Positions 40,261-63,447 of a stretch of DNA of 64,000 nt are shown piece after piece. Each line of letters starts with the position of its first letter. The stretch's first letter is position 1. The position numbers and the translations under genes are program-made. The notes beneath the pieces were generated by a model. The model was not told where the DNA came from. It saw nothing but the letters and a program-made list of their open reading frames with translations, and made no database searches. The DNA comes from Paraglaciecola sp. MB-3u-78. Its GTDB lineage: Bacteria; Pseudomonadota; Gammaproteobacteria; Enterobacterales; Alteromonadaceae. The stretch spans positions 186,001 to 250,000 of the forward strand of contig NZ_PJCF01000013.1 in assembly GCF_002835935.1 (NCBI RefSeq), read 5' to 3'.

Positions 40261-41277
40261 TTACAGCGACTGCAGGAACTGCATCAGTTCGTCATCTGCG
40301 GGATGATAGAGATGCATTTTTGTATCGGGCTCTTGAAGCTTTGCCAGCGCCTTCGTTTTCATCTCCAAGTTTGCCTCTACGTATCGATGGGTGGTGATCA
40401 TGCTTTCATGCCCGAGCCATAACGCAATCACACTAAAATCGACACCTGATTGCAGTAAATGCATTGCAGTCGTATGCCGAATTGTGTGCGGCGAAATACT
40501 TCGTTTGGATAAGCTGCTGAATTTCTCGGTCGCCTTGACTACTGCGATATTGAGGCGTTGCGATACGTTACCGCGTGTCATTGCGTGTCCAGCACGATTT
40601 GGCAGCAGGGCAGCATCCCTCCCAAACGTTGGGTTGTATTTAAGCCAAGCCCGAATTTCCTGAACAGTGCTTTTCCACAAAGGTGTTGAGCGTTGCTTAC
40701 GTCCCTTGCCGAGTAGGTGTACACAGGCTGCTACATCCAAAACAACATCACAGACACGTATGCCGATAATTTCCGAGACTCTCGCTCCGGTGTTGTATAG
40801 CAAAGTCAACAACAAATGGTCACGCTTGGATGTCCATGTATCGCCTGGCTGACCCAGCACTGCCAACATCTCCTCGCGCGACAGAAATCCAAGCATCGGT
40901 CGTTCAAAACGTTTCATCGGTACACCCAGCGCACTCTCGATGAAGTAGAAAGAGGATACATCACGCCGTGCCGCGAATTTCAGGAATGAACGTAACGCGG
41001 TCAGCCGGAGGTTTCGACTACGAACCGAATTGTGTCGGTCAATTTCCAAGTGATCCAGAAATGCCAGAATCAAATCCGGATCAAAGTCCGACAGGCTAAG
41101 TGCTGTCGGAGACTTGCCCAAACGTTCATGCGCGAAATCCAGAAACAACATCATCGCATCCCGGTAAGAAGCAATAGTACGTGGACTCACTGCACGCTGT
41201 TTTACCAGGTACTCGGTAAAAAATTGCTGAATCAAGGATGCAAATGATACAGAGCGTGGCGCTATTATTTCAGACAT
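40261..41277 (-). CDS. ritC: Tyrosine recombinase of the RIT trio (third gene)
   Basis: 338 residues, ATG 41277 behind GGAGGTGAG, overlapping the previous gene by 13 bp. N-terminal SAM-like core-binding domain (residues 14-105). Catalytic residues are all present: Arg in NTGARVSEIIGI, Lys in GKGRKQRSTPLW, HxxR in SPHTIRHTTAMHLL, His in LGHES and Tyr in THRYVEA. Acts with its two neighbours to move the element; the division of labour within trios is not known. Confidence 0.9.
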   Translation of the reverse strand: MSEIIAPRSVSFASLIQQFFTEYLVKQRAVSPRTIASYRDAMMLFLDFAHERLGKSPTALSLSDFDPDLILAFLDHLEIDRHNSVRSRNLRLTALRSFLKFAARRDVSSFYFIESALGVPMKRFERPMLGFLSREEMLAVLGQPGDTWTSKRDHLLLTLLYNTGARVSEIIGIRVCDVVLDVAACVHLLGKGRKQRSTPLWKSTVQEIRAWLKYNPTFGRDAALLPNRAGHAMTRGNVSQRLNIAVVKATEKFSSLSKRSISPHTIRHTTAMHLLQSGVDFSVIALWLGHESMITTHRYVEANLEMKTKALAKLQEPDTKMHLYHPADDELMQFLQSL

Positions 41278-42245
41278 GGCTCACCTCCCTGCATTTGCGT
41301 AAACGCTTCAAATTTATTTGCCACCACGGTCATGAGTTGCGGTACACCGCTGAGATACCAATAGGTATTGGTTACCTTTGCGTGCCCCACATATGTGGAC
41401 AATGCCAGCATCTGCTGATCGACATTCACGCCCTGAGAATGCCAAAGCATCACGCGATTAACGATAAATGTGTGTCGCAGGTCGTGAATGCGAGGGGCAT
41501 CGTTAGTGCCGCGATTGAGCCATTTTAATTGATCGCGCAAGCCCGCAAAGACTCTATGTACCTGGCGCAATCCCAAACAATGACCTTTACGACGACCGCG
41601 AGTGCCCACAAAGAAAGGCATTTCTTCGGTAAATTCAATGTGTAAATTGCGTAAGGATTGATAACGTCTGAGTACGTTGACCACGCTCGGGTGCATCGGC
41701 ACATAGCGTGATTTGGCGAACTTGGTCATCCGGATAATCAGCATACCCGCCTTCAGGTCAACATCTGTCTCCAGTAAATTTACTGCTTCTGAAACACGTA
41801 GTCCTGTCGAAGCCATTAAGCCAAACAGTGTTTCGTAGGTTGCACCTCGTAATCCAGGGAACGGGCCGAGACTACGTGCTGCAGCCAGCAATTCGATGAC
41901 TTCCTGCTCAATATAGATATGTGGTGCTGGCCTCTGCCCGGTTTGGCCAAAGGTGAAGTCGTTAGGCACTTCTGTAAGCGGTTCAAATTGTTGCAGGTAA
42001 CGGGTAAATGGACGTAACTTGCCCAGGCGCCGCGCCCATGTCTTGGGATTGCCGCTATTTCCTTTGTCGCACTGTGCCCAAGCGGTCATGACCTCGATGG
42101 TCAGTGGCCCCTCTAAATTAAGAGAGTCAACATAGCCTGCAAAACTATTGACAGAATAGCCTACCGAGCGCAGATCAAAACCAAGCCGGCGACGTTCTTC
42201 AAGGTAATTGGTTGCGTGCATTTGCATCGTAATGTGGGTAATCAT
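41265..42245 (-). CDS. ritB: Tyrosine recombinase of the RIT trio (second gene)
   Basis: 326 residues starting at ATG 42245, which overlaps the first gene's stop as ATGA, so translation is coupled. Catalytic set: Arg in STGLRVSEAVNLL, Lys near MTKFAKSRYVPMH, HxxR in IHDLRHTFIVN, His in VGHAKVTNTYWYL with the nucleophile Tyr in that stretch. The N-terminal half is core-binding. A GTG six codons upstream is less likely. Confidence 0.9.
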   Translation of the reverse strand: MITHITMQMHATNYLEERRRLGFDLRSVGYSVNSFAGYVDSLNLEGPLTIEVMTAWAQCDKGNSGNPKTWARRLGKLRPFTRYLQQFEPLTEVPNDFTFGQTGQRPAPHIYIEQEVIELLAAARSLGPFPGLRGATYETLFGLMASTGLRVSEAVNLLETDVDLKAGMLIIRMTKFAKSRYVPMHPSVVNVLRRYQSLRNLHIEFTEEMPFFVGTRGRRKGHCLGLRQVHRVFAGLRDQLKWLNRGTNDAPRIHDLRHTFIVNRVMLWHSQGVNVDQQMLALSTYVGHAKVTNTYWYLSGVPQLMTVVANKFEAFTQMQGGEPCLK

Positions 42246-43483
42246 AATGCGCTCCCTGGCCAAGGTAGCGCGACCGCAGCGAGATTTCTACTGTCGAGCT
42301 TGGCGTAAATCATCGTTGTATTCAGCGAGCGATGTCGCAGAACATCCGCTACTTCCTTGAGCGAACTACCACCTTCGAGCAAACGATTTGCCATCGTGTG
42401 TCTCAGAAGGTATGGCCGTGTGTGCGGCAGACCAGCTCGCGCAAACGCCTGTCGTATTGTTTTACTGATTAGATGATGACTAATTGCCTGATCGCGCGGA
42501 GCGATGTTGCGCACAAAAACAGCACGATTGGAGGTTTGTGGTCGTTCAAGTCTTAGGTAGTCGGCAATGGCGCGACCTATCGCTGCAGGTAAAGGCATGA
42601 CATCTTCGCGGCAACCCTTGGTTCTTCGCAGTGCAATGGTGGCAGCACGCCAGTCGATATCATCTAGCCCGAGATTGGCTATTTCGCCACTTCGCAGCCC
42701 AAGACCCAACGCACAATGCACGATGGCCGCAGCTCTGCGTGCAGATGGGCCGTCATGCTCAAGTGACCCAATCAAACATTCGATCTCGACGCTATTGAGC
42801 GTCTTTGGCAACGAAGCAAGTTGCCACTTAGCTGGGCGGCATAGAACCCCAGTTAGATGATGGACTGGATCGCCTTGCGTAGCGCGATAGCGAAAATACC
42901 CACTCAATGCCGAGATGGTGGGAGTAATACTGAGTGGGGTGCTGCACAACTCGCTCTGCTTCGCGACAAACTTGCGCACATCATCGGGATTCATCGCGGA
43001 AATTATCACAGTGTTATTTGCGAATTTATCAAGCAGCAGACGCGCAATGACTCGAAGGCGCTGTCGGCACGTACTTGGCGCAAGCCCTCGAGCATGGCTC
43101 ATATACATATCGAAGCGGCGTAATTCCTCATCTGCTGGCGTCATGCCAATTGCCGGCTTTTCGATGACTGCATTTGCGCGTAGGACGCTGAGAAGATGGT
43201 TGAGTGCAGTTTGTAATGTTCTGCGAACACGGTATACCCGACTTGCGCAGTCGCAATGCGGCAGGTGCTCATAAAGAAACTGATGAACTATTTGTTCATC
43301 GATTCCATGAATATCGATTCCAGATTGAGTTAACCAGTGAGCGAAGTGGGCAATGCTGGCTAAGTAATTGTCAACGGTTGTAGGGACGTAGCGACCTTCC
43401 GTAAAGCGACGCTTGAAAGCGTCAACGTATGCCGCCAGTTGGCTTTCAAGAAGCCAAGTGGTTGAGTGATAGTTGGGGTTCAT
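42242..43483 (-). CDS. ritA: Tyrosine recombinase of the RIT trio (first gene)
   Basis: 413 residues from ATG 43483 behind CAGGAG; an upstream GTG at 43513 lacks a ribosome binding site. The largest of the three. An N-terminal extra domain (residues 1-170) precedes the catalytic domain with Arg in GLGLRSGEIANLGL, Lys in RRTKGCREDVMPL, HxxR in LLRHTMANRLL, the RHRS position and Tyr in TMIYAKLD. It is first in the transcription unit. Confidence 0.9.
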   Translation of the reverse strand: MNPNYHSTTWLLESQLAAYVDAFKRRFTEGRYVPTTVDNYLASIAHFAHWLTQSGIDIHGIDEQIVHQFLYEHLPHCDCASRVYRVRRTLQTALNHLLSVLRANAVIEKPAIGMTPADEELRRFDMYMSHARGLAPSTCRQRLRVIARLLLDKFANNTVIISAMNPDDVRKFVAKQSELCSTPLSITPTISALSGYFRYRATQGDPVHHLTGVLCRPAKWQLASLPKTLNSVEIECLIGSLEHDGPSARRAAAIVHCALGLGLRSGEIANLGLDDIDWRAATIALRRTKGCREDVMPLPAAIGRAIADYLRLERPQTSNRAVFVRNIAPRDQAISHHLISKTIRQAFARAGLPHTRPYLLRHTMANRLLEGGSSLKEVADVLRHRSLNTTMIYAKLDSRNLAAVALPWPGSAL

Positions 43484-43605
43484 TTCAGTCTCCTGAGGTG
43501 GGTGGATTACCACTTCAGAATACGGGTAAAACTATGTCAAGTTAATGGGTCATGGCCTTGCCTGAAGCCCAATAGAATAGAGAGTCTTGGATTTTCAAAA
43601 ACAAC

Positions 43606-50402: not shown

Positions 50403-52055
50403 TTAGTTTGGATAGTAAACGTACTCGTCTCCTTCAGCCCAACCTTCTTTATCCATTTTATCTATATTGATTGGCACTTCTAAAACTGAGGTCCAACGTG
50501 GCTGCATAAGTCCAGAGTTATGGGCGATGAGTAATGTTGTTAGTTGTTTAACTTTTTCTGGATTGGATTCTGCAAGGTTGTTTTGTTCGCCTGGATCTTC
50601 AGTTAAATTAATTAACCACGTTTTACCTGGACGTTTGCTTACTTGAAGTTTCCAGCCATCCGACAATACAGCTTGATAATGATCGTGTTTCCAAAACAAT
50701 GCATTATGTAATTTTCCGCTGGATACTCCTTTGCCATGAGGTATTAAGTTTTTACCATCAATGGTCCGGTCACTAGGAACCGAAACTCCAGCTGCAGCCG
50801 CAATAGTAGGGAAAATATCTGTGTGGTGAACCACGTCGTCTACTTGTTCTCCTTTGGCAAATTGAGCAGGCCATTTAACAAAAAACGGAGTACGGATACC
50901 GCCTTCAAAAAAGGTGATTTTCCAACCGCGATAAGGCTTATTAATATCTGCCACATTAATCATGTTAGTGCCGCCGTTATCGGATACAAAAATGATCATG
51001 GTATTGTCTTCCAAGCCATTATCTTTGAGTGCTTGAGTTACACGGCCTACACTACGGTCTAACGATTTAATCATGGCTGCATAAACACGTTGTGTATGAT
51101 CTTTGATTTGCGATAGTGAATCATAATCGGATTTCAATGCTTGCAAAGGATTATGGGGCGCCCAGTGAGCCAGATTTAAGTAGAACGGTCGATCTTTATT
51201 CGTTTCAATAAACTTAACCGCTTCGTCTGTGTAGTAGTCGGTTATATAGCCATCAGGTTTGAAATAATCTAAGCCATTAAAGCTGGTGGCATATGACATC
51301 ATCGACCAGAGAAATTTGTTGTAAGCGTTTGAGTTTTGTTCGGCAGCGACTGAATTAGGATCGTCCGCTGGTAAATACAAACCACTTGCCATGAGTAATG
51401 CATCATCAAATCCTTGCTGGTGTGGCAACATGCCTTCGCCACGGCCAAGATGCCATTTGCCTATGTGGCCAGTTTGATACCCTGCATCCTTTAACATCTC
51501 GGCGATGGTAATTTCGCTATTGGGCATACCCAACTCTTCAAACGGTAGACGGTCATCTTCGCCTCTAAAAATCATCGGTGGGGCAAACTCTGTCTGCTCG
51601 GTTAATGCATTCATGACAGTCGACATGCCATCTGGTACGGGGGTTGATTCAAAACCAAAACGTGAGCCATAACGCCCCGTCATAATGGCAGCTCGAGACG
51701 GGGCACAGGTACCATCTGCGGTATAGCCCTGGGTAAAGTTAACACCGTTTTGAGCAAGTTCATTAATGTTTGGGGTTTGCAGTGCGCCATTAGCGACACC
51801 ACCGCCATTGAGGCTGATGTCGTTCCAACCTAAGTCGTCGGCTATGATAAGAATAATGTTAGGTTTACGTTGTATGGCAGGAGTCACGGCTAAATCAGCT
51901 GGTTGAGGTGTCCACAGGATCTCTCTATGTTCCGCTACGGGATGTTTCAGTTTATTTATAATGCCCGGGGCATGTAAAATAATTTGCTTTTGCATGATAG
52001 CGCCGATACCGACAATGAGTACTAAGGTAATACCTGTCCATTTTAAAAATTTCAT
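50403..52055 (-). CDS. Formylglycine-type sulfatase, membrane-anchored
   Basis: 550 residues. An N-terminal hydrophobic helix (7-25) without clear cleavage suggests an inner-membrane anchor with periplasmic domain. S1 sulfatase motifs: PNIILIIADDLGWND (metal Asp pair), CAPSRAAIMTGRYG with Cys117 as the residue oxidised to formylglycine, HIGKWHLGRGEG, LNLAHWAPHNPL and IFVSDNGGTN. Cleaves sulfate esters; substrate unknown. Marine bacteria use many for sulfated polysaccharides, but no carbohydrate-active gene is nearby. It lies at the edge of the proposed TetR regulon, with an operator-like dyad upstream at 52285. Confidence 0.88.
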   Translation of the reverse strand: MKFLKWTGITLVLIVGIGAIMQKQIILHAPGIINKLKHPVAEHREILWTPQPADLAVTPAIQRKPNIILIIADDLGWNDISLNGGGVANGALQTPNINELAQNGVNFTQGYTADGTCAPSRAAIMTGRYGSRFGFESTPVPDGMSTVMNALTEQTEFAPPMIFRGEDDRLPFEELGMPNSEITIAEMLKDAGYQTGHIGKWHLGRGEGMLPHQQGFDDALLMASGLYLPADDPNSVAAEQNSNAYNKFLWSMMSYATSFNGLDYFKPDGYITDYYTDEAVKFIETNKDRPFYLNLAHWAPHNPLQALKSDYDSLSQIKDHTQRVYAAMIKSLDRSVGRVTQALKDNGLEDNTMIIFVSDNGGTNMINVADINKPYRGWKITFFEGGIRTPFFVKWPAQFAKGEQVDDVVHHTDIFPTIAAAAGVSVPSDRTIDGKNLIPHGKGVSSGKLHNALFWKHDHYQAVLSDGWKLQVSKRPGKTWLINLTEDPGEQNNLAESNPEKVKQLTTLLIAHNSGLMQPRWTSVLEVPINIDKMDKEGWAEGDEYVYYPN

Positions 52056-52284
52056 ATCGAACTCTCCTTATATTGTAAATTATGGCACTTCATCTAGATG
52101 AGTGATTGGAGTACTTGGCGATAATTATATTGGTCTCAATGCTCAGCAATGACATCAAGACTGACTTCACTTTCGACTTCGATGGTCTGATATAGCCAAG
52201 CAGATGCTGATGAGCAGTTCGAGACGTGTCGATAGATTAGTTATGTGTTCGCATTATGTGATCGCGTTATATGTTCGCATTATG

Positions 52285-52307
52285 CATTGTCATTCAGCGT
52301 GCCAATA
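52285..52307. promoter_or_regulatory. Candidate TetR operator, sulfatase side
   Basis: CATTGTCAT-TCAGC-GTGCCAATA: arms match the consensus TATTGGCAT-N5-ATGCCAATA at 7 of 9 and 8 of 9 positions with the same 5-base spacing. It lies 230 bp before the minus-strand sulfatase. Confidence 0.45.
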
Positions 52308-52509
52308 AAGTCAATTTGATTTATTATTAGCTATAATACATTGTCAATGTGTGGCTCACAGAGTGGTATGACTCAGCAATACTAATTTTCACATGCCCTT
52401 TGATTTATATTGGTATCATCCATTTATTTCGGGTGAGCAGTGTTCCCCAAATCTCCTAAATCATTCACATTCTCTCACTCAAAAAATGGAGGCATTTAAC
52501 ATTTAAATA

Positions 52510-52532
52510 ATATGGCATATACTATGACTAAA
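52510..52532. promoter_or_regulatory. Candidate TetR operator before DUF1330/cytochrome genes
   Basis: ATATGGCAT-ATACT-ATGACTAAA. It shares the central GGCAT-N5-ATG with the other sites and is nearly the same as the 56875 site across GGCATA..TATGAC.AAATAAG. Confidence 0.5.
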
Positions 52533-52561
52533 TAAGAATAGTGGTATGTTGTGTTTAGTGA

Positions 52562-52963
52562 GGTGACGTTGAAGATACTAAGACAGCAAAGAGAAAATCA
52601 AAAGCTTATGAGACTTATAGCAAAGCAGTCACTCCACTAATCTTTGAAGTAGGTGGCTCTCCAATTTGGAGAGGCCGCGTCAAGACAACCGTGATCGGCC
52701 CTTCTAAGGAACAGTGGGATGATGCAATTTTGGTGTATTATCCGTCACGCCAAGCATTTATTAATATGATAAAAACTCAAGATTATAATGACATTCGTTT
52801 TCTCCGAGACGCAGGTCTTTTAGACTCAAGGTTAATTGAAACACATCCCACTTTTCTTCCCAAAACGCTAATAAAGGTTATTTGCTTGATTCAACGTATC
52901 AAGGGCAAGTTTAAAACTCGCCAGCTCAGTGAAACCTTTAAGAATATGGAGGGTATTAACTGA
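52562..52963 (+). pseudogene. DUF1330-family protein lacking its N-terminus
   Basis: Open from 52562 to 52963 with no ATG/GTG/TTG at a sensible place before residue 44. It reads KAYETYSKAVTPLIFEVGGSPIWRGRV, VIGPSKEQWDDAILVYYPSRQAFINMI and AGLLDSRLIETHP, a clear DUF1330 (dimeric alpha/beta barrel, EthD-like) core. The usual first strand (MINLLKF-like) is missing after the in-frame TGA, so it is probably a 5'-truncated gene. The frame from GTG 52691 alone would be half a domain. It lies 163 bp before the cytochrome gene. Confidence 0.6.
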
Positions 52964-53126
52964 TAGAGTAATAATCTAAAAGAGGGCTAACATTGCTTTT
53001 TTTATATTCATGAATCTTAGGGTTTAAATGTGAACACCTAATGCAATAGGCCGAATAGCAATTATGATATTACAAGCAAATGTTACCCATCTACTTCACT
53101 CTATTGCAAACAAGGTAGGCTAGGAG

Positions 53127-55337
53127 ATGTTGCGATTAGGTTTTTTACTACTAAGTTGTATATTTCTGACGGCCTGTTCTGAGCAGAAACCATTAGAGGC
53201 CCTGCCTCAAACTTTAAAACTCAATGAATTTGTCGGCAGTGAGACTTGCGGCCAGTGTCATCAAATGGAATTCAATGCTTGGCAAGGCACTCATCATCAA
53301 TTGGCAATGGGGGAAGCCACTACCGATTCGGTATTAGGAAACTTTGATAATGTTTCCGTCAATATTGGCGATCGTTCAGCTCGTTTTTTTGAACAAAAAA
53401 ATCGATTTCATGTCACCACAGACAATGGGCAAGGAAACAATGAAACCTTTGTTATATCTGACACATTTGGTATCGACCCTATTCAGCAATATTTGATTAC
53501 TTTTGATGATGGTCGAAAGCAGGTTCTTGATTTTTCTTGGGATACGCGGCCAGTTTCAGAAGGTGGGCAGCGCTGGATGATCCCTAATATTAATCATGAC
53601 TCATCTGGTGAGCCTATTACGTCTGAATTTCATTGGACTAGCAGTGCATACAATTGGAACAGTCGTTGTGCTTCATGTCATACAACGGGCTATAAAAAAC
53701 AATATGATGTCTCAAGTAATACTTATAATAGCCAATTCTCTGAAATTAATGTGTCGTGCGAGGCCTGTCATGGGCAAGGTTTGCAGCATGTGAATTGGGC
53801 TGAAGGAAAAACCCCACTAGGCGCAGATGTAAACAAGGGATTTGATCAGATCATTAAGGATTCAGGTCGTTGGCAGTATGTCCAAGATAATTTAGAAAGA
53901 AGCGGTAAAGGGCAAGCTTTGCACTTTGAAATGGCGCCAAATACTAAGACACGTCAAAATAAACTTGCCCATCAACAGGTCGATGTTTGTGCAAAATGTC
54001 ATTCGCGTCGGATGCAATTTTCAGATAGTTATTCAACAGAATTATTTACCGATAAATACCTACCTATGTTGATTGAACCGGCTCTTTATCACAGTGATGG
54101 CCAAATTAAAGATGAGGTTTTTGTTTGGGGATCCTTTAAACAAAGCAAGATGGCTATGGCTGGGGTCACCTGCAGCAATTGTCATGACAGTCATAGTTTA
54201 AAATTAAAAGTGCAAGGCAACGGCTTATGCACACAATGCCATGAATCTTCTGAATATGACTTACCCAAACATCATCACCATCCTGTAAAATCAGAGGGTG
54301 CCCAGTGTGTCAATTGTCATATGCCTGCGAACATGTATATGAGTATTGATCCTCGCCGTGATCATAGTTTCAAGATCCCTACGCCGGGTCTCAGTGCGCA
54401 GGTTGATGCACCCAATGCCTGTAATAATTGCCATCAAAAAGAAACAGTCGATTGGGCCGATACACACCTACTCAATTGGTTTGGTAAGCATTCAAAATCA
54501 CTTCTACCGCGGTTTTCGCAAGTCATGGAAGATAAAAATACCAACACGTTAATCGAGATTGCAAGTGACCTAAGTCATGCCCCCATCGTTCGGGGCTCTG
54601 CGTTGATAAGAATTGATCAGCATTCTCAAGAAAGTTTAAAGGCCATCGCGAATGCATTAAAAGAAGAGTCAGAATTAATTCGACTTGGTGCCATTCGCCG
54701 TTTAGACACTTTGCCACCTCAGTTAAGATTAAAATTACTAGAGCCTCATTTGGATGAGGCCTCTAATGCTGTAAAACTTGAAATGGCCCGAGTATTATCG
54801 CCCCTTAATCTTCAACAATTACCCACACAACTAGCCAATAAAATTCATGTTTTATTTGAATTTTTTATTACGGCTATTAGCTATAACGCAGATACCCCTG
54901 AAAATCAGTTGGTTTTAGGGGATTTTTATTTTGCGCAAGGACAACACCAGGCATCATTAAAAGCTTATCGACATGCATTGAAATTAGAGCCACATAATGA
55001 ACATGGGTTACTCAATTTGGCCGACTTGTATCGGGCATTAGGACGTGACAGTGAAAGTGAGTCTCTCCTTAAAATGGCCATTCAAAGCCACCCAAATTCA
55101 GCATCTGCTCACTATGCTATGGGCCTTTATTTCATTAGAACTCAGTCCTTTAATGATGCGCTTATTCATTTACAGTTAAGTACTCGTCTGTTACCTAATA
55201 ATCCTGTTTATATTTACGCCTATGTTTTGACACTCAAGACCACGGGTAAAATTTCAGAGGCTCATTCTTTACTTGAGCAATGGATGGTTACACATGATCC
55301 AGACGCTCAATTGCTTCAGCTCAAAAATAGTTTTTAA
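53127..55337 (+). CDS. Eight-haem cytochrome c lipoprotein with TPRs
   Basis: 736 residues, ATG 53127 behind TAGGAG. Lipobox LTAC. Eight CxxCH haem motifs: CGQCH (41), CASCH, CEACH, CAKCH, CSNCH, CTQCH, CVNCH and CNNCH, all in the first 440 residues, with NCHMP and SYST-type histidine-rich ligands. Residues 450-570 form HEAT-like helices (GSALIRI, LIRLGAIRRLDTLP) and 590-730 carry TPRs (LVLGDFYFAQGQHQASLKAYRHALKLEPHNEHGLLNLADLYRALGR). It resembles multihaem cytochromes of the NrfA/UnbV-associated type. Probably periplasmic electron transfer with TPR docking; redox substrate unknown. Confidence 0.88.
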   Translation: MLRLGFLLLSCIFLTACSEQKPLEALPQTLKLNEFVGSETCGQCHQMEFNAWQGTHHQLAMGEATTDSVLGNFDNVSVNIGDRSARFFEQKNRFHVTTDNGQGNNETFVISDTFGIDPIQQYLITFDDGRKQVLDFSWDTRPVSEGGQRWMIPNINHDSSGEPITSEFHWTSSAYNWNSRCASCHTTGYKKQYDVSSNTYNSQFSEINVSCEACHGQGLQHVNWAEGKTPLGADVNKGFDQIIKDSGRWQYVQDNLERSGKGQALHFEMAPNTKTRQNKLAHQQVDVCAKCHSRRMQFSDSYSTELFTDKYLPMLIEPALYHSDGQIKDEVFVWGSFKQSKMAMAGVTCSNCHDSHSLKLKVQGNGLCTQCHESSEYDLPKHHHHPVKSEGAQCVNCHMPANMYMSIDPRRDHSFKIPTPGLSAQVDAPNACNNCHQKETVDWADTHLLNWFGKHSKSLLPRFSQVMEDKNTNTLIEIASDLSHAPIVRGSALIRIDQHSQESLKAIANALKEESELIRLGAIRRLDTLPPQLRLKLLEPHLDEASNAVKLEMARVLSPLNLQQLPTQLANKIHVLFEFFITAISYNADTPENQLVLGDFYFAQGQHQASLKAYRHALKLEPHNEHGLLNLADLYRALGRDSESESLLKMAIQSHPNSASAHYAMGLYFIRTQSFNDALIHLQLSTRLLPNNPVYIYAYVLTLKTTGKISEAHSLLEQWMVTHDPDAQLLQLKNSF

Positions 55338-55417
55338 TTGCTTTTTCTATAATGGATCTACTTTATTATCTGGGGTTGCTGTATACCGATGATAAATGAT
55401 ATTTTATTTAAGCTAAG

Positions 55418-55440
55418 TATTGGCATGTATCGTGGCAATA
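55418..55440. promoter_or_regulatory. Candidate TetR operator before the isomerase-like gene
   Basis: TATTGGCAT-GTATC-GTGGCAATA: left arm perfect, right arm 7 of 9, spacing 5. It lies 117 bp before 55535. Confidence 0.6.
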
Positions 55441-55487
55441 TGTGGCATTGTTTCATTATTAAGCGATCTAATCGAAGAATTTACTTT

Positions 55488-55538
55488 ATGCTTAAATGGA
55501 AGAGGGTGATACCGATGTTATCTGGCCAAACTAAATGA
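55488..55538 (+). CDS. Short upstream ORF coupled to the isomerase-like gene
   Basis: ATG 55488 opens a 16-residue frame (MLKWKRVIPMLSGQTK) whose TGA overlaps the start of the next gene as ATGA (55535-55538). The next gene has no ribosome binding site of its own, so translational coupling through this frame is plausible. The peptide is probably not functional itself. Confidence 0.3.
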   Translation: MLKWKRVIPMLSGQTK

Positions 55539-56845
55539 AAAAAGCTGTGATGCCATACGTTTTAACTGCGGTTTCAAGTGACACGATACGTGATATAAAA
55601 CGACAGGTGTATTTAGCGAAGAGAAAATTACAAGGGCAACCAGCGACCCTTCATATATTTCTAAAATCAGATGATCCATATAGCTACTTACTGTTACAAG
55701 CCTTACCTTCTATTGAAAAGCGTTTTAAGGTGATTTTGAAATTTCATGTGTTTCAAAAAATAGACAGCGAAATGTTTCCACGCCTTGATATGTGGCTGGA
55801 CTATACAAAACACGACGCTTGTCACTTAGCTAAACTTTATGATTTTTCTTTTCCGAGTAAAGATGAGCTGCCCACCATCGATAAAGAAATAACAAATAAG
55901 CTAGCACTTTATTTGGTCAATATTGAAACCGATGAAGCATTTATATCGAAAGCGATACGGTGCTTAGAGGAGTATTGGTTTCAAGGCATATCTCCAGCTA
56001 TAGAAGATGTTTTGGTTAAAAAAAATCGACTGAAATTGACTGAAAATTTTGACCTTCTCACTAAGCGTGGTCATTACCTAGGTGCCATGATAAATTTTGA
56101 AGGTGAGTGGTATTGGGGTCTTGATCGTCTGGATCATCTAGAAAAACGCTTGATTGGTCTTGCAAGGACCCATGGTAAAAAAGAAAGCATACACTTCGAT
56201 CGCACCTATGAAGGATTTTGCAAAGCATCTTCATCAGATATGGCTGGCGATAATCAAATGCCTTTGATTCTTTATTGGTCTGCTCGAAGTCCTTATTCAT
56301 ACATTGCTTTAGAGCGTGCAATTATGCTCTGTGCACACTACAAAATACCCTTACTGATCAAACCTGTATTACCGATGATGATGCGGGGTATGAATGTTCC
56401 TGATACAAAAAAAATCTATATCTTTTTAGATACCAAACGAGAAGCTTCGAAACTAGGTTTACCTTATGGCTGTGTGGCCGACCCATTAGGTGCTGCAGTG
56501 GAGCGTTGTTACTCACTGATCCAGTATGCAAAATCCGAAGGTAAGTACCATGACTTTCTATTGAGCTTTGCCAGAGGAGTGAATTCACAAGGCATCAGGG
56601 CTGAAACGGATCGAGGAATGAAAACTATCGTCACACGCTGTGGGCTGGATTGGAACACAGCGAAACTTAAGCTGAAAGATCAAAGTTGGCGTGTATGGGC
56701 TGATAAAAATCTAGATGAAATGTATGCGGTTGGATGTTGGGGAGTGCCAACTATATGTTATGGCGACTCTCACTTCTGGGGGCAGGATAGATTTGGCATC
56801 ATGGAAAATTACGTCCTAAAAAGACAGACGAAGTTCAAAAAATAA
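55535..56845 (+). CDS. Tandem DsbA-fold protein, 2-hydroxychromene-2-carboxylate isomerase-like
   Basis: 436 residues with two HCCA-isomerase/DSBA-like domains. Domain 1 (about 38-215): LHIFLKSDDPYSYLLLQALPSI at its start and YLGAMINFEGEWYWGLDRLDHLEKRL at its end. Domain 2 (about 243-430): LILYWSARSPYSYIALERA, MMMRGMNVP, LGAAVERCY and GCWGVPTICYGDSHFWGQDR. The SPYSY and GVPTI..FWGQDR motifs are those of glutathione-dependent HCCA isomerases (kappa-GST-like); domain 1 has DDPYSY and no cis-Pro GVP motif, so only domain 2 may be catalytic. The family acts in aromatic or xenobiotic breakdown. No signal peptide; cytoplasmic. Confidence 0.8.
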   Translation: MKKAVMPYVLTAVSSDTIRDIKRQVYLAKRKLQGQPATLHIFLKSDDPYSYLLLQALPSIEKRFKVILKFHVFQKIDSEMFPRLDMWLDYTKHDACHLAKLYDFSFPSKDELPTIDKEITNKLALYLVNIETDEAFISKAIRCLEEYWFQGISPAIEDVLVKKNRLKLTENFDLLTKRGHYLGAMINFEGEWYWGLDRLDHLEKRLIGLARTHGKKESIHFDRTYEGFCKASSSDMAGDNQMPLILYWSARSPYSYIALERAIMLCAHYKIPLLIKPVLPMMMRGMNVPDTKKIYIFLDTKREASKLGLPYGCVADPLGAAVERCYSLIQYAKSEGKYHDFLLSFARGVNSQGIRAETDRGMKTIVTRCGLDWNTAKLKLKDQSWRVWADKNLDEMYAVGCWGVPTICYGDSHFWGQDRFGIMENYVLKRQTKFKK

Positions 56846-56874
56846 TAACTCGATATATAAAGTTGCGTGCATAG

Positions 56875-56897
56875 TAATGGCATACAGTATGACCAAA
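56875..56897. promoter_or_regulatory. Candidate TetR operator before the sulfatase operon
   Basis: TAATGGCAT-ACAGT-ATGACCAAA: left arm 8 of 9 to consensus, spacing 5. It lies 116 bp before 57013, in the place expected for a repressor site. Confidence 0.6.
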
Positions 56898-57012
56898 TAA
56901 GTTGATCCTAGATATTGTTGCGAGTAAACTTCAATTATTAATGATTTTAGGTGCTAAGTATCGGCGGCAAATCGCTGTGGCTTGTTAAACATAAATTCAT
57001 GGAGACAATAGT

Positions 57013-58761
57013 TTGAAACATTCTGTATTTAAGTCCGTATTGATAATGATTTTTCTCAGTAGTACCTACACAATGGCTGCTCAGCAAAAACCCAATGTAT
57101 TAGTGGTTCTGTTAGATGATGTGGGCTTCATGGATTTTGGCAGTTATGGTGGAGATACAGCAACACCAAACATTGATAAATTGGCGCAACAAGGGGCCAA
57201 GTTTTCTCGATTTTATACGTCACCGCAATGCGCGCCAAGCCGTGCCATGTTGATGACGGGTAAAGACAACCATCAAGTAGGTATTGGTTCTATCATTGAA
57301 TCCTTAGATCCAAAGCTAAGACAATATCCTGCATATAGCATGATATGGGAAGACGATACCAAAACTATGGCATCTCGATTAAAAGAGTCAGGCTATCAAA
57401 CCTTTGTTAGTGGTAAGTGGGGTATAGGTGAGTCTGGCGCTAACTTACCCAGTAAATTTGGGTTTGATCGTTCTTTTGTTTTAGATGCAACTGGCGCTAG
57501 CAACTATGACCACCGGCCATATATTCCAATTAGTACAACCGCTAAGTGGTTTGAAGACGGTGAGCCTACCACGCTGCCTGATGATTTTTATTCCTCCCGT
57601 AATTTAGTCGATAAGCTGATTGGATATATTGATGATGCTGAAAGCGAACAGCCATTCTTCGCGTACTTGCCGTTTATGGCTATTCATATGCCGTTGCAGG
57701 TGCCTAAAGAATACATTGATAAGTACAACGGAGTGTTTGATCAAGGCTGGGATGTCGTGGCCAAACAGCGTTTGGAAAAAGCCATTGAATTAGAGCTTGT
57801 ACCCGGTGGCACCAAACTAGCAAAATCATTAAAGACTAACCGCAAATGGGACCAATTAACTGAAGCAGAAAAGGTCTATTGGGCCCGTGCCATGCAAGTT
57901 AATGCGGGTATGTTAGAAGCGGCAGACTTTCATTTAGGTCGTTTGCTAAGTCAATTAGAAGCAAAGGGCAAATTAGAGAATACCATTGTGATAGTGACAT
58001 CAGACAATGGGCCTGAAGGCAGTACCGTGGGTTTTGACAAGGGCTTACAAGGAATTGCGTTTAGTGCGTGGATGTCCATGCACGACTGGAGTACCGAATA
58101 CGAGGATATGGGGGGTAGAAATGGCCTAACGACCATTGGGCCCGAATGGGCATCTGTGTCATCAGGGCCGTTTAGGCTGTTTAAATTTAATAGTTCAGAA
58201 GGTGGACAACGTGTTCCTCTGATTATTTCGGGATCAGGAATTATTAATCAAACTGATTTTCTTCAAGGTCGAGCTCATATGGTGGATATTTTGCCTACTG
58301 TTCTTGATGTGCTTGATATTCCATTCGATCAAGACGAATTATACGGCCGAAGCTTGATGCCATTAATTAACGAGCAGTCACAAGAAGTTTACGGAACCGA
58401 TGAGTCTTACGCTATTGAGGTGGGTGGAAATGCATCTTTGTATCGAGGTGCTTGGAAAATCTCACGGGTTAATCCTCCTTCTGGAGATGGCCAGTGGCAC
58501 TTATTTAATTTGGCGGTTGACGCAGGTGAAGCGAACGTTTTGGAGGATGAATACCCGGTACTGTTTCAAGAACTACTAAATGAATATTTAGCATATTCTA
58601 CTGAGATGGAGATCATTCAGCCAGATCTTGATTCTAATGATAGAGATCAAGTGGTCAAAAATATCATTCGCAAGCAAGCAGGTCTCATAGGGCCATACCT
58701 CATTTTCATAGTGATTCTGATCGTGGGCTTTGTTTACCTGCGTCGTCGAAAAAAAAGTTAA
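57013..58761 (+). CDS. Arylsulfatase (formylglycine type), periplasmic
   Basis: 582 residues from TTG 57013, with GGAG 8 bases upstream. Signal peptide ending YTMAAQ. S1 sulfatase: PNVLVVLLDDVGFMDFGSYGG (metal Asp), PQCAPSRAMLMTGK with Cys73 as formylglycine precursor, SGKWGIGE, AYLPFMAIHMPL and VTSDNGPEGS. An unusual C-terminal membrane helix (YLIFIVILIVGFVYL) ends in RRRKKS, so the mature enzyme is probably tethered with its tail inside. It is followed 40 bp later by the DJ-1-like gene. Aryl or alkyl sulfate ester substrate unknown. Confidence 0.9.
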   Translation: MKHSVFKSVLIMIFLSSTYTMAAQQKPNVLVVLLDDVGFMDFGSYGGDTATPNIDKLAQQGAKFSRFYTSPQCAPSRAMLMTGKDNHQVGIGSIIESLDPKLRQYPAYSMIWEDDTKTMASRLKESGYQTFVSGKWGIGESGANLPSKFGFDRSFVLDATGASNYDHRPYIPISTTAKWFEDGEPTTLPDDFYSSRNLVDKLIGYIDDAESEQPFFAYLPFMAIHMPLQVPKEYIDKYNGVFDQGWDVVAKQRLEKAIELELVPGGTKLAKSLKTNRKWDQLTEAEKVYWARAMQVNAGMLEAADFHLGRLLSQLEAKGKLENTIVIVTSDNGPEGSTVGFDKGLQGIAFSAWMSMHDWSTEYEDMGGRNGLTTIGPEWASVSSGPFRLFKFNSSEGGQRVPLIISGSGIINQTDFLQGRAHMVDILPTVLDVLDIPFDQDELYGRSLMPLINEQSQEVYGTDESYAIEVGGNASLYRGAWKISRVNPPSGDGQWHLFNLAVDAGEANVLEDEYPVLFQELLNEYLAYSTEMEIIQPDLDSNDRDQVVKNIIRKQAGLIGPYLIFIVILIVGFVYLRRRKKS

Positions 58762-58801
58762 CTAACCGCAACACAATATTAGTAAATTTGAGGAAAGTTT
58801 G

Positions 58802-59644
58802 ATGACCCTAAAAAAAGTAGGATTAATAATTACAGTTGTTTTGGCAGCCATTAGTATAGTTTATTGGGGGCTACCCAAAACCCTGAATTTAATAGGACTA
58901 CATCCTCATTATGACATCCCAGCATACGACCTAAGCGGCAAGCGTGCTCTGATTGTAACCACTAGTCATGGTGTACTTAGTGAAGAGGTTGATGACAAAG
59001 ATGCCAAAGCAACGGGGGTGTTTGGTTCAGAGTTAAGCATTCCATACTATTCTTTGTTGAATGCTGGTGTAGAGGTAGACATTGCATCAATTAAAGGGGG
59101 TAAAATTCCTATTGAACCTAACTCTATGGACTGGCCATTAGCGACTGCTGAAGATAAGCGTTTTAAACAAGACGCGGTTGCCTTGGCCAAAATTGCCCAC
59201 TCTATCCCAATTAGTCAAATTGATGCCTCTCAATATGATGTTATTTTTATGTCTGGTGGCTGGGGGGCGGCCTATGATTTGGGGCGTTCTGCTGAATTAG
59301 CGGACGTTGTGACGAAAGCCAATGCCAAAGATGCAGTGATTGGTTCCGTCTGCCATGGTGCATTAGGTTTAATCAATGCCAAAGCAAAAGACGGTTCATC
59401 TTTGATTGCAGGGCGTAATGTAACCGGTGTAACCGATTTACAGATAAAACAGCTGGATATTGAAATGACACCTTTGCATCCAGAAACTGAGCTAAGAAAA
59501 GCCAATGCAAATTATGAAGCTAATTCGGCGTTCCTTGATATTTTTGCGACACACGTGGTGGTAGACGATAATTTAGTCACAGGTCAAAACCAAAATAGCA
59601 GTGCAGAAACTGTGCATCGCATTCTTGAAATTTTAAGCAAATAA
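58802..59644 (+). CDS. DJ-1/PfpI-superfamily protein, membrane-anchored
   Basis: 280 residues from ATG 58802 behind GAGGAAAG; a TTG three bases upstream is less likely. An N-terminal helix (5-23) anchors it. The DJ-1/PfpI (type 1 glutamine amidotransferase-like) domain has RALIVTTSHGVL, GVFGSELSIPYYSLLNAGVEVDIASIKGG, YDVIFMSGGWGAAYDL and the nucleophile elbow GSVCHGALGL with the conserved Cys. Related Hsp31/glyoxalase III proteins act on reactive carbonyls or as hydrolases. Here the location in a sulfatase operon suggests handling of a reactive product (inference). Confidence 0.82.
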   Translation: MTLKKVGLIITVVLAAISIVYWGLPKTLNLIGLHPHYDIPAYDLSGKRALIVTTSHGVLSEEVDDKDAKATGVFGSELSIPYYSLLNAGVEVDIASIKGGKIPIEPNSMDWPLATAEDKRFKQDAVALAKIAHSIPISQIDASQYDVIFMSGGWGAAYDLGRSAELADVVTKANAKDAVIGSVCHGALGLINAKAKDGSSLIAGRNVTGVTDLQIKQLDIEMTPLHPETELRKANANYEANSAFLDIFATHVVVDDNLVTGQNQNSSAETVHRILEILSK

Positions 59645-59750
59645 TTCCTAAACATATTCACATTTATCCGAGAGCATGCACTGGCAGCACAAGTTTATTG
59701 AGCTAATACCAATCACCATAAGTCTTGATTTTTAGAGCGGTTTCATGATG

Positions 59751-59784
59751 AGCCAGTTGAGAGATCAACTGGCTTTTTATTTTT
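59751..59784 (+). terminator. Rho-independent terminator of the sulfatase operon
   Basis: AGCCAGTTGA (59751-59760) / TCAACTGGCT (59765-59774), a perfect 10-bp stem with loop GAGA, followed by TTTTATTTTT. Confidence 0.9.
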
Positions 59785-59874
59785 AAGATAAGCACTTTAG
59801 TTTTTAAAGTAATGACTATCCCCTATCCTTAAATACTGCAGTAATGTATTAGTGCAAACCAAACTTGAGACATC

Positions 59875-60942
59875 TTATAGCCAGTCATCTTCTAATATTT
59901 CATCGCTATTGGCAGGTAAAGTGATCACGCTGCCATCTACACCTAATGTAATGGGGCCTTGATAGGCATCATCCGTCCCTTTTAGGAATAGTGCCTCCAT
60001 TCCGGGGGCAGGCAGAGCTGGAATAATGTGGTAATACATTAAGTGTCGGGCGTTAGCCGCTGCAGCGACTTGTGCCGCTTCAACAGGTGAGGTGTGATAG
60101 TCCGGAATATCAAACATCACTTTTTCCAAGATGGGCATGTGTTTACTTTTTGCGGTAACTTGGATCAAATTGATTAATACGTTCGATAACGCTTCGTGTA
60201 CCAATAGGTCAACATTCTTAGCTGCCATTTCGACATTTTTTGACTTGGTGGTATCGCCACTGATCACCGCTGTGCGTCCCTTGTATTCAAAGTGATATCC
60301 AACAGCAGGGTAAACGGGTTTATGATCCACTGAAAATGCTTTTACGGTTAATCCATTTTTATTAAAAACTGTCACCATGACGCCTGGTTCGGGTGAAGGG
60401 AATTCTTTCGCGATTAAGCCGGCTCCAGATTTTGGGGCTACAAGGTCTGAATGGTGATCGTGGCGATATTGTGCATCTGCAGCGTAGGCTAAATTAAATC
60501 CTTCAACCACCTTTTTGGTGCCTGCTGGACCAATGACAGGTAATGGCGAAGTATTTGCGGCGTTAACCCAGCGCATCATTCCCAACTTGCCTAAACTATC
60601 AATATGGTCTGAGTGAAAGTGAGTTAATAACTGGGCGCTGATATTCCCCAGAGGGACTTGCATCTCTAGTAGGTTAGTGGTGCTGCCGGCCCCTGCATCT
60701 ACCGTAACCAAAGTGTCTCCCGCAATGATCAGTACACAAGGGCCTGAGCGCACAGGATCGGGCAAGGGACTGCCAGCACCGCACAAAACAACGTGTAAAC
60801 CATCTTCAAGTTCTGAAACTGAGTTCCCCCCTAAGCGTTGCTCAACTACAACTTCTGCGATTTTGTATCCCATGTCTGAAGGGCTGCAACCGCTCATTAT
60901 GTTGGCAGAAAAGAGTGCTACTGCGTACTTAACCAGTTTCAT
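59875..60942 (-). CDS. Metallo-beta-lactamase-fold lipoprotein (AtsA/RNase Z-like)
   Basis: 355 residues with lipobox IMSGC. MBL-fold motifs: LVTVDAGAG, LLTHFHSDHIDSLG (zinc ligands), HDHHSD, VDHKPVYPAVGYHFEYKG, AVISGDTTKS and a final ARHLMYYH histidine. It is closest in style to the RNase Z-like MBL group that includes the MBL-type arylsulfatase AtsA of Pseudoalteromonas carrageenovora, so it may be a third, unrelated sulfatase in this locus (inference). An operator-like dyad is at 60993. Confidence 0.8.
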   Translation of the reverse strand: MKLVKYAVALFSANIMSGCSPSDMGYKIAEVVVEQRLGGNSVSELEDGLHVVLCGAGSPLPDPVRSGPCVLIIAGDTLVTVDAGAGSTTNLLEMQVPLGNISAQLLTHFHSDHIDSLGKLGMMRWVNAANTSPLPVIGPAGTKKVVEGFNLAYAADAQYRHDHHSDLVAPKSGAGLIAKEFPSPEPGVMVTVFNKNGLTVKAFSVDHKPVYPAVGYHFEYKGRTAVISGDTTKSKNVEMAAKNVDLLVHEALSNVLINLIQVTAKSKHMPILEKVMFDIPDYHTSPVEAAQVAAAANARHLMYYHIIPALPAPGMEALFLKGTDDAYQGPITLGVDGSVITLPANSDEILEDDWL

Positions 60943-60992
60943 GATGGAGGTTTCCTCTGTTGGTTAGCTTTACCTTGATGTTTATAAAAATA

Positions 60993-61015
60993 CATTAGCA
61001 TGCCGCATGACAATT
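60993..61015. promoter_or_regulatory. Candidate TetR operator before the MBL-fold gene
   Basis: CATTAGCAT-GCCGC-ATGACAATT: both arms 7 of 9 to consensus with 5-base spacing, 51 bp before the start at 60942. Confidence 0.6.
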
Positions 61016-61122
61016 TAAACGAAACGTACAAAAAAATAAAAGCACGTATGTGAATTAAGGGCGCAGTAGAAAGTCGTTTTTTATAATCGCCTGCATACAA
61101 ACTGATACAGGGCGGAGCATAT

Positions 61123-61725
61123 TTATTCGAACTGTTTGACCAGACAGTTTACCTGATATTGGAGAATATCCTGAGATTTTTGGGCGTTATAATTCAAGTT
61201 AAGTCTGAGATTAATCCATGTGATGGTACTGATTAAAGAGTTTAATGCTGCAAAGGTTATGTCATCTTCGAGAATGGGATTCGGCAAGATTGTTTGCAGT
61301 GACGCCCTTTCCAACTCAAATATGCGTTCATATGTTGCTCTTAGATATTCAGAGCGAAAACGTCGCAGACTCAGACTGACTCGCATAGGAAATATTTTTT
61401 CATAGATTTCGCAGCGGTTTCGAACAAGTTCATTTAATTGTTCTCGCCAGGTTGTTGTTTTATATGGCTTTAGATATATAGGCAGGACCTGATTCTCTAC
61501 ATCTGAAGCGATTTCGCGACTCAAGCTATCCATATCATCAATATTTCGAAAAACAGTGCGTATACTTAATTGGGTTTTCTCTGCAATATCCGTAGCTCGG
61601 GGGGAATAGTTACCCGAATAGATAAGGTCATGTATGGCTGCTTTAATCATTTCTCGACTACGAATACTACGTAAACGTCGGCCATCGCTTTTAGTGTCAG
61701 AGTTAAAGCGCGATGTATCGTTCAT
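61123..61725 (-). CDS. TetR-family regulator of the sulfatase/cytochrome locus
   Basis: 200 residues from ATG 61725 with GGAG 9 bases upstream; a TTG at 61740 adds five residues but has no site. N-terminal helix-turn-helix in RSREMIKAAIHDLIYSGNYSPRATDIAEKTQLSIRTVFRNIDDMDSL (about 24-72), followed by a helical ligand-binding domain without recognisable relatives. A dyad (61807-61829) lies in its own promoter, and the same dyad recurs before neighbouring genes, so it is probably an autoregulated repressor of this cluster. Effector unknown. Confidence 0.85.
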   Translation of the reverse strand: MNDTSRFNSDTKSDGRRLRSIRSREMIKAAIHDLIYSGNYSPRATDIAEKTQLSIRTVFRNIDDMDSLSREIASDVENQVLPIYLKPYKTTTWREQLNELVRNRCEIYEKIFPMRVSLSLRRFRSEYLRATYERIFELERASLQTILPNPILEDDITFAALNSLISTITWINLRLNLNYNAQKSQDILQYQVNCLVKQFE

Positions 61726-61740
61726 AAAACCAAACTCCAA

Positions 61741-62143
61741 ATAACCAATTTAAACTCACGCTCAGTTGCCCAAGGGCAGGTCCAAAACTGATGGTATTAT
61801 ATTATGTATTGGCATATTTAATGCCGATATATGTTATGAAATATTTTACAATTCGAGTGTTGTAACTCAGAAGATTTCGCAGAATAGCATAAGCATTTAA
61901 TAATTGGGAGTTCGCCTTGTAAATAGCTGTAACTATACTCATCTCAACTTATGTATTTGCCTCCTGTGCCTATGCAGGCAATGCCAAAGCGGATCGCGCT
62001 GCAAAAAAACATACAAATGAATGTTTCCCAAGCTTATTTAAGGAGACCGAGAAGCCAATGAATAAAACAGGAAGTGTGACACCTGGATCCTCCTGTCTTA
62101 TTCTTCTATTTTGCAGCGTCTTAGCAATATTATCTATTGGTCG
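61741..62143. other. Gene-free region with the tetR operator and a possible remnant
   Basis: Holds the tetR promoter and operator. From about 61918 to 62142 the plus strand reads a signal-peptide-like stretch (VTILISTYVFASCAYAGNAK) to a stop at 62143, but there is no start codon or ribosome binding site. It is probably a gene remnant; function not identifiable. Confidence 0.35.
61807..61829. promoter_or_regulatory. Candidate autoregulatory TetR operator
   Basis: TATTGGCAT-ATTTA-ATGCCGATA, a near-perfect dyad (one mismatch), 82 bp before the tetR start. It is the best-centred example of the consensus found before the other operons. Confidence 0.72.
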
Positions 62144-63122
62144 TTAAAATCGGATTTTAACGGTAATGCCATACGTAGCAGGTTCACTATAAAAGCTAAG
62201 CAATTTCGCTGATTGTAATGGGGCTGCATAAGATATTAGCCCCTGATTATCTTTGTCAGTGATATTACGTCCCCATAAGATGATATCAGTATCATATTCT
62301 TCAAAGCTGAAGTATATGCGAGCGTTTATTTTACCGTACCCGTCAGCCTTTGAGATAGGGTCGTTTGCAGCTTCAGTATACATTGAGCCCAAATAATTAT
62401 ATTCGATCATGGCATAAGAATAAACGTCATCACTTATCTTAAATGCTTGCTGAAGACCTAATATAACCATCTCGATCAGAAGAGAATGCGGTGACTCGAA
62501 ATGCTAACTCATCCTCAATTGCCGAAAACGACTTTGCAAAGGAAACGTTTTTTAAGCCATAATTACCTAAAGTAGCTTCAATAAAACCATCATTGCCATC
62601 ATGGCTAGGCGCAACATTACGGATGTGTATGGCACCTGACGGAGTGTTTTTTCCAAACAAAGTACCTTGAGGGCCACGCAATACTTCAACCACTTCAACA
62701 TCAACGAAATTGTTGATCATTGAGCTTTGGCGGGCTCGATAAACACCATCAACGTAGATACCAACTGATGATTCTAAACCAAAGTTTTGTGATGAGGTGC
62801 CAACACCACGAATAGAAAACTGAGGGGTGGTTGAGCTTTGTGATTGAGAAATTGTCAGAGAAGGCACCGAGGCTTGTAAATCAAACATATCTTTGATGGC
62901 TGCTTCTGCTAAAGCATTTCCCGATATGGCGGTTACGGCAATTGGAACATTCTGCAGGTTTTGGCTACGCTTTTGCGCGGTCACCATGATTATCTCTAAG
63001 CCAGTATCTTCTTTTTTTATTACACCGTCATTTTGTTCCTGAGCGACTATATGAGTACTGAGTATCAGGGACACTGACGCTGCTATATAGCCCTTTTTCA
63101 ATCCTCTGTTGGAATTATTCAT
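62144..63122 (-). pseudogene. TonB-dependent receptor with large out-of-frame deletion
   Basis: N-terminal part (63122-62439): signal peptide ending THIVAQ, TonB-box/plug region LEIIMVTAQKRSQNLQNVPIAVTAISG, SIRGVGTSS, VYRARQSSMINNFVDVEVVEVLRGPQGTLFGKNTPSGAIHI and the first barrel strands. C-terminal part (62470-62144): the last barrel strands NARIYFSFEEYDTDIILWGRNITDKD and ATYGITVKIRF with terminal Phe. Family members are about 700-800 residues; roughly 400 are missing at the junction near 62460, where the frame also shifts. Non-functional. A double operator sits just upstream. Confidence 0.85.
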
Positions 63123-63447
63123 CTACAGACCTCATTGCTATAATTATATTGGCATACACTATGTCAGATGACATGCACCATGCCAATATAATTAGTTGCA
63201 AAACTAACAAGTAATTAACATTCATTGAGAAAATGAGCTGTGAAAATTAATAATTTATATACCATTGAGGTAGAAGCTTTCCAGATAGCCCCGATAAGTT
63301 TATTTAGCTAAGAGATTTAGAGCTAGACAATAGAAGCTGATAGCTCGAGCAACAGTTCACAAGCGCTGAGTCCTCGTACAAAGGCCGAGACCTATGTATG
63401 TTAGAACCACTATTTATATTTAAACCTATGATTGAAGTTAAGAAGAT
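63123..63447. promoter_or_regulatory. Receptor promoter region
   Basis: 325 bp between the receptor start and the AraC gene end. It holds the double dyad at 63147-63188, at the position of a promoter/operator for the minus-strand receptor. Nothing else recognised. Confidence 0.45.
63147..63188. promoter_or_regulatory. Double TetR operator before the TonB receptor
   Basis: A 42-bp dyad: TATTGGCAT at 63147 and ATGCCAATA at 63180-63188 (perfect arms), with an inner palindrome ATGTCA-GA-TGACAT (63161-63174). It can be read as two overlapping 23-bp sites (63147-63169 and 63166-63188), each with one perfect outer arm. It starts 25 bp before the receptor ATG. Confidence 0.7.

Follow-up and report, generated by a model that had tools for sequence, protein, structure and literature searches.

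A dyad with fixed five-base spacing as the probable operator of a local TetR regulon around two sulfatase genes in Paraglaciecola sp. MB-3u-78

In Paraglaciecola sp. MB-3u-78 the same inverted repeat lies in front of a gene for a TetR-family repressor and of several of its neighbours, two sulfatase genes among them, which raises the question of whether this repressor governs them as one regulon and what such a regulon would be for. The window, meaning the whole stretch of 64,000 nucleotides that was analysed, covers positions 186001-250000 of contig C2 in a genome of 6.48 Mb (G000), and the proposed regulator (205 amino acids) is encoded at 61123..61740 on the reverse strand. The dyad is very probably the operator of this TetR, placed before its neighbouring genes as well, a reading drawn from sequence comparison and strongly supported by other genomes, because distantly related bacteria have the dyad before the corresponding regulator and before genes of similar kinds. 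With considerable confidence we propose that TATTGRCAY-N5-RTGYCAATA is the TetR operator of a local regulon for the use of amphiphilic sulfate esters.

An earlier note on this DNA had claimed eight dyads of the form TATTGGCAT-N5-ATGCCAATA, the double site counting as two, with an invariant spacing of five bases, and all eight were recovered at their positions with that spacing and outside open reading frames (ORFs) of at least 100 amino acids. The site at 61807 departs from the pattern by one mismatch, 55418 by two and 52285 by three, while 56875, 60993, 63147 and 63166 have four each and 52510 has six. Three window sites have at most three mismatches, whereas 100 dinucleotide shuffles contained 0.05 such sites on average and never more than one. 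Spacing five alone is enriched between 50,000 and 64,000, where it yields seven sites with at most four mismatches and spacings 0-4 and 6-13 yield zero or one each; in positions 1-50,000 the same threshold gives two sites at spacing five and 0-3 at other spacings.

A symmetrised operator matrix, trained without window data on 81 distinct 23-mers of other genera, ranked seven of the eight claimed sites among its nine best matches in the 64 kb. The best is the putatively autoregulatory site before tetR itself (61807..61829, TATTGGCATATTTAATGCCGATA; 21.6 bits, rank 1), which is kept in the congener G020. It is followed by the site before the DsbA-like gene (55418..55440; 20.8 bits, rank 2; ORF start 106 bp from the site centre), the paired sites in front of the TonB receptor remnant (63147..63169, 19.5 bits, rank 3, and 63166..63188, 17.6 bits, rank 5, with centres 19 bp apart) and those before sulfatase 1 (52285..52307; 15.6 bits, rank 6; ORF start at 241 bp) and before the operon of sulfatase 2 and DJ-1 (56875..56897; 12.6 bits, rank 7; ORF start at 127 bp). 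The site before the DUF1330 frame and the cytochrome gene (52510..52532) is weak at 11.3 bits and rank 9. At 10 bits or more the matrix finds 10 window matches, eight of them in 52,000-63,300, whereas in 100 first-order Markov sequences, each 64 kb long, the mean was 2.67 and the maximum 7. Three matches at this threshold were unclaimed: 28201-28223 (AATTGACATAAAGAAGGCCAATT; 17.7 bits, rank 4), outside ORFs of 100 amino acids and away from the cluster genes, 7334 (rank 8), within an ORF, and 55576 (rank 10), within the DsbA-like gene. The matrix therefore picks up background too.

The reading is carried above all by related loci, which were fetched by TetR protein similarity alone. Of 260 confirmed stretches the 80 best were kept; one of these (L031) was G020 again and was dropped, leaving 79 loci (1.42 Mb), with carriers in Rhodobacteraceae, Sphingomonadales, Hyphomonadaceae, Phenylobacterium, Comamonadaceae and Gammaproteobacteria. 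The exact pattern TGRCAY-N5-RTGYCA occurs 108 times in these loci, whereas each of the spacings 0-4 and 6-12 gives 0-4 occurrences. Conservation at related loci, a check that had been suggested, is evident: for 103 of the 108 exact sites the extrapolated start of tetR, or of a gene homologous to a cluster gene of the window or of the divergent congener G021, follows within 350 bp; five lie elsewhere, and at other spacings zero or one site is so placed. Forty-nine stand before tetR, many of them lying also before a divergent neighbour, and the remaining 54 precede none but other genes. When divergent promoters are counted twice, the genes fronted are tetR (49), sulfatase 1 (24), sulfatase 2 (23), DUF1330-like (19), haloalkane-dehalogenase-like (16), glutathione S-transferase (GST; 6), dsbA (2), QOR (2) and DoxX-labelled (2). 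A site with at most one mismatch is found directly before 62 of 85 tetR genes at spacing five (49 exact) and before 0-2 of 85 at other spacings. Such a site precedes tetR in 11 of the 18 groups into which single linkage at 60% identity divides the TetRs; under greedy grouping of the 85 TetRs a distal site is present in eight of 22 groups at 60% and in 13 of 31 at 70%. The presence of the dyad before tetR and before homologous genes elsewhere strongly supports the core of the earlier claim, that the dyad is the operator of this TetR and lies before the neighbouring genes too; the further claim of one pathway is in doubt for this genome, where the TonB receptor survives as a remnant.

'DUF1330-like' in the 79 loci denotes likeness to a G021 protein that has no Pfam match and is weakly alike to the window DUF1330 frame (21%, E 7e-6, in a single comparison). 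In L040, L043, L045, L047, L050 and L052, which are of Aquidulcibacter/Hyphomonadaceae type, the operator lies between tetR and the DUF1330-like gene. Before a tetR of genome G258 (L112:1575-1597) a perfect palindrome, TATTGCAAA-N5-TTTGCAATA, has a like architecture and another core.

Among the best 80 of 260 stretches the closest TetR record is that of an uncultured Paraglaciecola metagenome-assembled genome (82%). G020 keeps TetR (82%) and the metallo-beta-lactamase (MBL)-fold protein (86%) at a contig end, with a dyad in the corresponding position before each gene, the one at the MBL gene scoring 11.4 bits (L022:17905); the flanks in the alignment are partly alike too. In G021 the TetR is 35% identical over 126 residues, and homologues of both sulfatases, the DJ-1, MBL, DsbA-like and cytochrome proteins and a full-length TonB receptor accompany it, in addition to an acyl-coenzyme A (acyl-CoA) ligase, two GSTs, a sodium/bile-acid-symporter-family (BASS) transporter, a haloalkane-dehalogenase-like hydrolase, a DUF2855 protein, the 'DUF1330-like' protein and a zinc-type reductase whose nearest model, curcumin reductase, is matched below cut-off. 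Matrix matches in G021 stand before tetR (17.6 bits), the receptor (10.6 and 12.6) and dsbA (13.7), in the ligase/transporter gap (14.7, 25.2 and 18.4) and in the GST/MBL gap (19.1 and 21.6); one more (L023:12231, 16.3 bits) falls inside a gene. In G332 sites of 23-27 bits precede an acyl-CoA dehydrogenase, a second homologue of this enzyme, an SDR and a TonB receptor, and a 21-bit site precedes an SdsA1-type alkylsulfatase; G208 has two sites of 22-23 bits in the gap that separates a DUF1302 gene from a two-gene unit ending in an alkylsulfatase. The SdsA1-type alkylsulfatases behind the operator (L111:7702-9858 and L114:8992-11049, each from another genome of the family) are unrelated to formylglycine (FGly)-dependent sulfatases. 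Sulfatase homologues occur in 59 of the 79 loci, and a family with a formylglycine-generating enzyme (FGE) representative in 31. The dehalogenase-like protein of G021 matches NF002043 (369.8 bits, cut-off 265) and structure 5esr (3e-93); solved haloalkane dehalogenases are the best structure matches of these hydrolases, and among the tblastn matches listed, some from one locus, the Asp-Trp motif reads QDWG in 30 of 30.

The window TetR has no Pfam match at 1e-3, its G021 homologue matches PF00440 (26.2 bits, cut-off 24), and its predicted fold is the all-helical TetR fold, with structures of KstR and FadR among the matches at 14-16% identity. In the mechanism that we propose, a dimeric TetR would recognise TATTGRCAY-N5-RTGYCAATA and, when free of ligand, would occupy its own promoter and block transcription, as it would at the sulfatase, sulfatase/DJ-1, DsbA-like and TonB-receptor promoters; the same control may extend to the MBL gene (60993) and to the DUF1330/cytochrome unit (52510). 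A sulfated substrate, or its desulfated or CoA-bound product, might bind TetR and release it from the DNA, and the regulon would then serve to import an amphiphilic sulfate ester, desulfate it and oxidise it further. Binding, repression, ligand and substrate class are all putative; an amphiphilic sulfate ester is suggested as both substrate and inducer by the shared theme of sulfate-ester hydrolysis followed by oxidation and CoA activation. The half-site TTGRCA is similar to a -35 hexamer, and at 63147-63188 the dyads coincide in part with a promoter-like pair.

The regulon looks local. With at most two mismatches TATTGRCAY-N5-RTGYCAATA occurs 14, 10 and 15 times in the TetR carriers G000, G020 and G021 and 2-12 times (mean 6.0) in the other 19 of 22 genus genomes, which include two with weak TetR matches (G013 and G015), the reversed control giving 0-5. 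Cluster proteins were compared with 58 short loci, namely one FGE locus and 57 dyad-like sites (13 and 10 from the own genome, 19 from the genus search and 15 from G020 and G021). Strong homologues were seen only at the window sulfatase site (L010) and at the tetR site of G020 (L136), and the weakly matching genes at L013 (BASS, 33%) and L142 (TonB, 24%) do not start behind the site. A genome-wide regulon is not supported, as none of the 22 dyad-like sites read with their flanks elsewhere in this genome, out of about 100 with at most three mismatches, stands before a cluster-gene homologue. TetR relatives are patchy, being found in 6 of 395 family genomes at E 1e-10, which suggests horizontal spread or loss; the plasmid collection held no TetR relative at 1e-5.

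Several observations weigh against the proposed regulon or limit it. Since all loci were picked by their TetR, site and TetR co-occur by design, seven of the 18 TetR groups have no site with at most one mismatch before tetR, and many Sphingopyxis rows are near-duplicates, so that kinship shrinks the count. A simple gene caller, used at first, placed 55 of the 108 exact sites within ORFs and 53 outside; as this caller keeps spurious long frames in GC-rich loci, homology-based gene starts were used instead. When the search was reversed, the exact 23-mer occurred in 4 of 398 and 1 of 369 genomes (two overlapping draws), the reversed pattern in two genomes, and the own genome has no exact match to the operator used. 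TetR lay beside the site in two of these five (L175 and, about 600 bp off, L176), one of them probably already among the 79, and in L177, L178 and L179 the 5.7, 20 and 11 kb read showed no TetR and no homologue of a cluster gene. The near-matches in congeners that lack the TetR imply that single weak sites mean little. Within the window, the doubtful site before the MBL-fold gene (60993..61015; 4.2 bits, rank 37) is at chance level by the foreign-trained matrix, although a dyad stands at the same position in G020. Promoter-like pairs are not in excess (26 versus 32.6 in shuffles), and promoter occlusion is accordingly an expectation taken from the TetR family.

Sulfatase 1 (50403..52055, reverse strand; PF00884, 8.9e-55) and the AtsA-like sulfatase 2 (57013..58761, forward; PF00884, 5.6e-56; arylsulfatase 1hdh, 2.9e-96) both exceed the PF00884 cut-off and carry the C-x-P-S-R motif, as CAPSR, which assigns them to the FGly-dependent type I class; the own genome has one PF03781 match (106 bits), inside a 735-residue frame. 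The cluster further encodes the multihaem cytochrome c554-like protein with a TPR domain (53127..55337, forward; PF13435, 2.3e-14, and TPR models), the 436-residue DsbA-like, earlier isomerase-like, protein (55535..56845, forward; PF01323, 9.6e-17, at residues 245-424), the DJ-1/PfpI-family protein (58799..59644, forward; PF01965, 8.2e-16) and the MBL-fold hydrolase (59875..60942, reverse; PF12706, 5.8e-12). Two of the earlier gene labels need amendment. The DUF1330 frame (52562..52963, forward; PF07045, 29 bits, cut-off 23) opens after a stop and in three-frame translation has its first ATG, GTG or TTG only at 52691; the short ORF from there has no Pfam match, whereas the open frame from 52562 does match PF07045. 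The TonB-dependent receptor (62144..63122, reverse) is a remnant of two frames that correspond approximately to residues 4-222 and 763-877 of its 877-residue G021 relative, about 335 residues in all. A full-length receptor homologue, 49% identical to that of G021, lies at G000:C5:39632, with its nearest upstream dyad-like match (at most five mismatches) about 6.5 kb away; for a dehalogenase homologue in the same genome (C56) this distance is about 1.2 kb. The pathway may therefore be incomplete here, or be served by another receptor such as the C5 homologue. Upstream of the sulfatase cluster, at 40261-43513 on the reverse strand, translations read as three tandem tyrosine-recombinase-like frames, which we take to resemble a recombinase trio.

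How far other explanations account for these data can now be judged. That the regulon is decaying in this genome, with operators and TetR persisting and the pathway defunct, is a real possibility, on balance doubtful: the receptor remnant, the DUF1330 frame that lacks a usual start and nearby recombinase- or transposase-like frames, judged from translations alone, would fit it, but tetR and the frames of both sulfatases, the cytochrome, DsbA-like, DJ-1 and MBL proteins are open over their full length, and the C5 receptor is of full length, albeit far from its nearest dyad-like match. A different regulator might bind the dyads and tetR be merely one of its targets, the obvious choice being the AraC-type protein whose gene adjoins the cluster just past the receptor gene (63448 onward). 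We regard this as very unlikely, given the site before tetR in most TetR groups and the fit of a 23-bp palindrome to a dimeric repressor of the TetR family; moreover, the window AraC query gave no best non-overlapping match among those listed for the 79 loci at E<=1e-8. Chance or base composition as the source of the repeated dyad can practically be dismissed. Loose thresholds do return 105 near-matches in the own genome (reversed control 31), and 28201 and 7334, outside the cluster, score on par with claimed sites, yet the spacing tests, the foreign-trained matrix and the placement across species all speak against it.

The nature of the substrate admits two further proposals. The cluster could be a sulfated-polysaccharide utilisation locus in which the dyad governs the use of a carrageenan-like polymer, since sulfatase 1 is closest, among solved structures, to S1_19 kappa-carrageenan sulfatases (6prm, 3.1e-82) and 11 of the 79 loci contain a family of genes with a GH92 member as its representative (L045:6653-8935). 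This is unlikely in view of the AtsA-like sulfatase 2 and of the haloalkane-dehalogenase-like hydrolases, GSTs, acyl-CoA dehydrogenases and SdsA-type alkylsulfatases that the operator precedes in relatives, and no glycoside hydrolase was found among the ten window proteins scanned, a set drawn from frames of at least 90 amino acids in part of the window. A bolder and still less probable extension is a pathway for sulfated and halogenated amphiphiles, common to Alpha-, Beta- and Gammaproteobacteria under one TetR code. Algal chlorosulfolipids are amphiphiles of this kind; their sulfates would be stripped by the two sulfatases and their halogens by haloalkane dehalogenases and GSTs, after which the CoA ligase and acyl-CoA dehydrogenases would break down the chain. 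This scheme pools parts of different genomes, and the window cluster itself has no dehalogenase.

The interpretation that we favour, a TetR operator of a local regulon for amphiphilic sulfate esters, would provide an exact operator code for a group of TetR proteins of which no description was found. Among the matches listed in an open-licence library there was no account of this regulon; the earlier note, too, knew of no described system with this gene set. The code links sulfatases of two unrelated folds, dehalogenase-like enzymes and GSTs, and also the DUF1330-like, DUF2855, DUF1254 and DUF1302 proteins that share the loci, so that the regulon can be mapped in other genomes and its substrate sought by induction. 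Should the substrate be a sulfated or halogenated algal lipid, a little-known part of the aquatic sulfur and halogen cycles would be opened.

Among known systems, KstR and FadR share the predicted fold of the window TetR and likewise control local catabolic regulons, for steroids and lipids, through operators that differ from this dyad. The SdsA1-type alkylsulfatases behind the operator in G208 and G332 are of the kind that acts in the degradation of alkyl sulfates such as sodium dodecyl sulfate; unlike these, the window sulfatases are of the FGly type, and the known regulator of sdsA-type genes is of the LysR type. As to BetI, the window TetR matched no NCBIfam family at 1e-3, in a library that presumably includes a BetI model, and the window sulfatases score 124.4 and 91.5 bits as choline sulfatases, far under the cut-off of 433.45. 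BetI of choline-O-sulfate catabolism is a TetR repressor acting on local palindromes and, like the regulator proposed here, controls a sulfatase gene (betC) together with its own operon (PMC12442346). Its half-site ATTGAC is like that found here and the BetI2 case has two overlapping palindromes, whereas the BetI1 palindrome ATTGACG*CGTCAAT is without the five-base spacer and the gene set of betC, betA, betB and betT differs from the window cluster (PMC12442346). BetI control of the choline-O-sulfate genes is the nearest published case found, with another operator and another gene set (PMC12442346).

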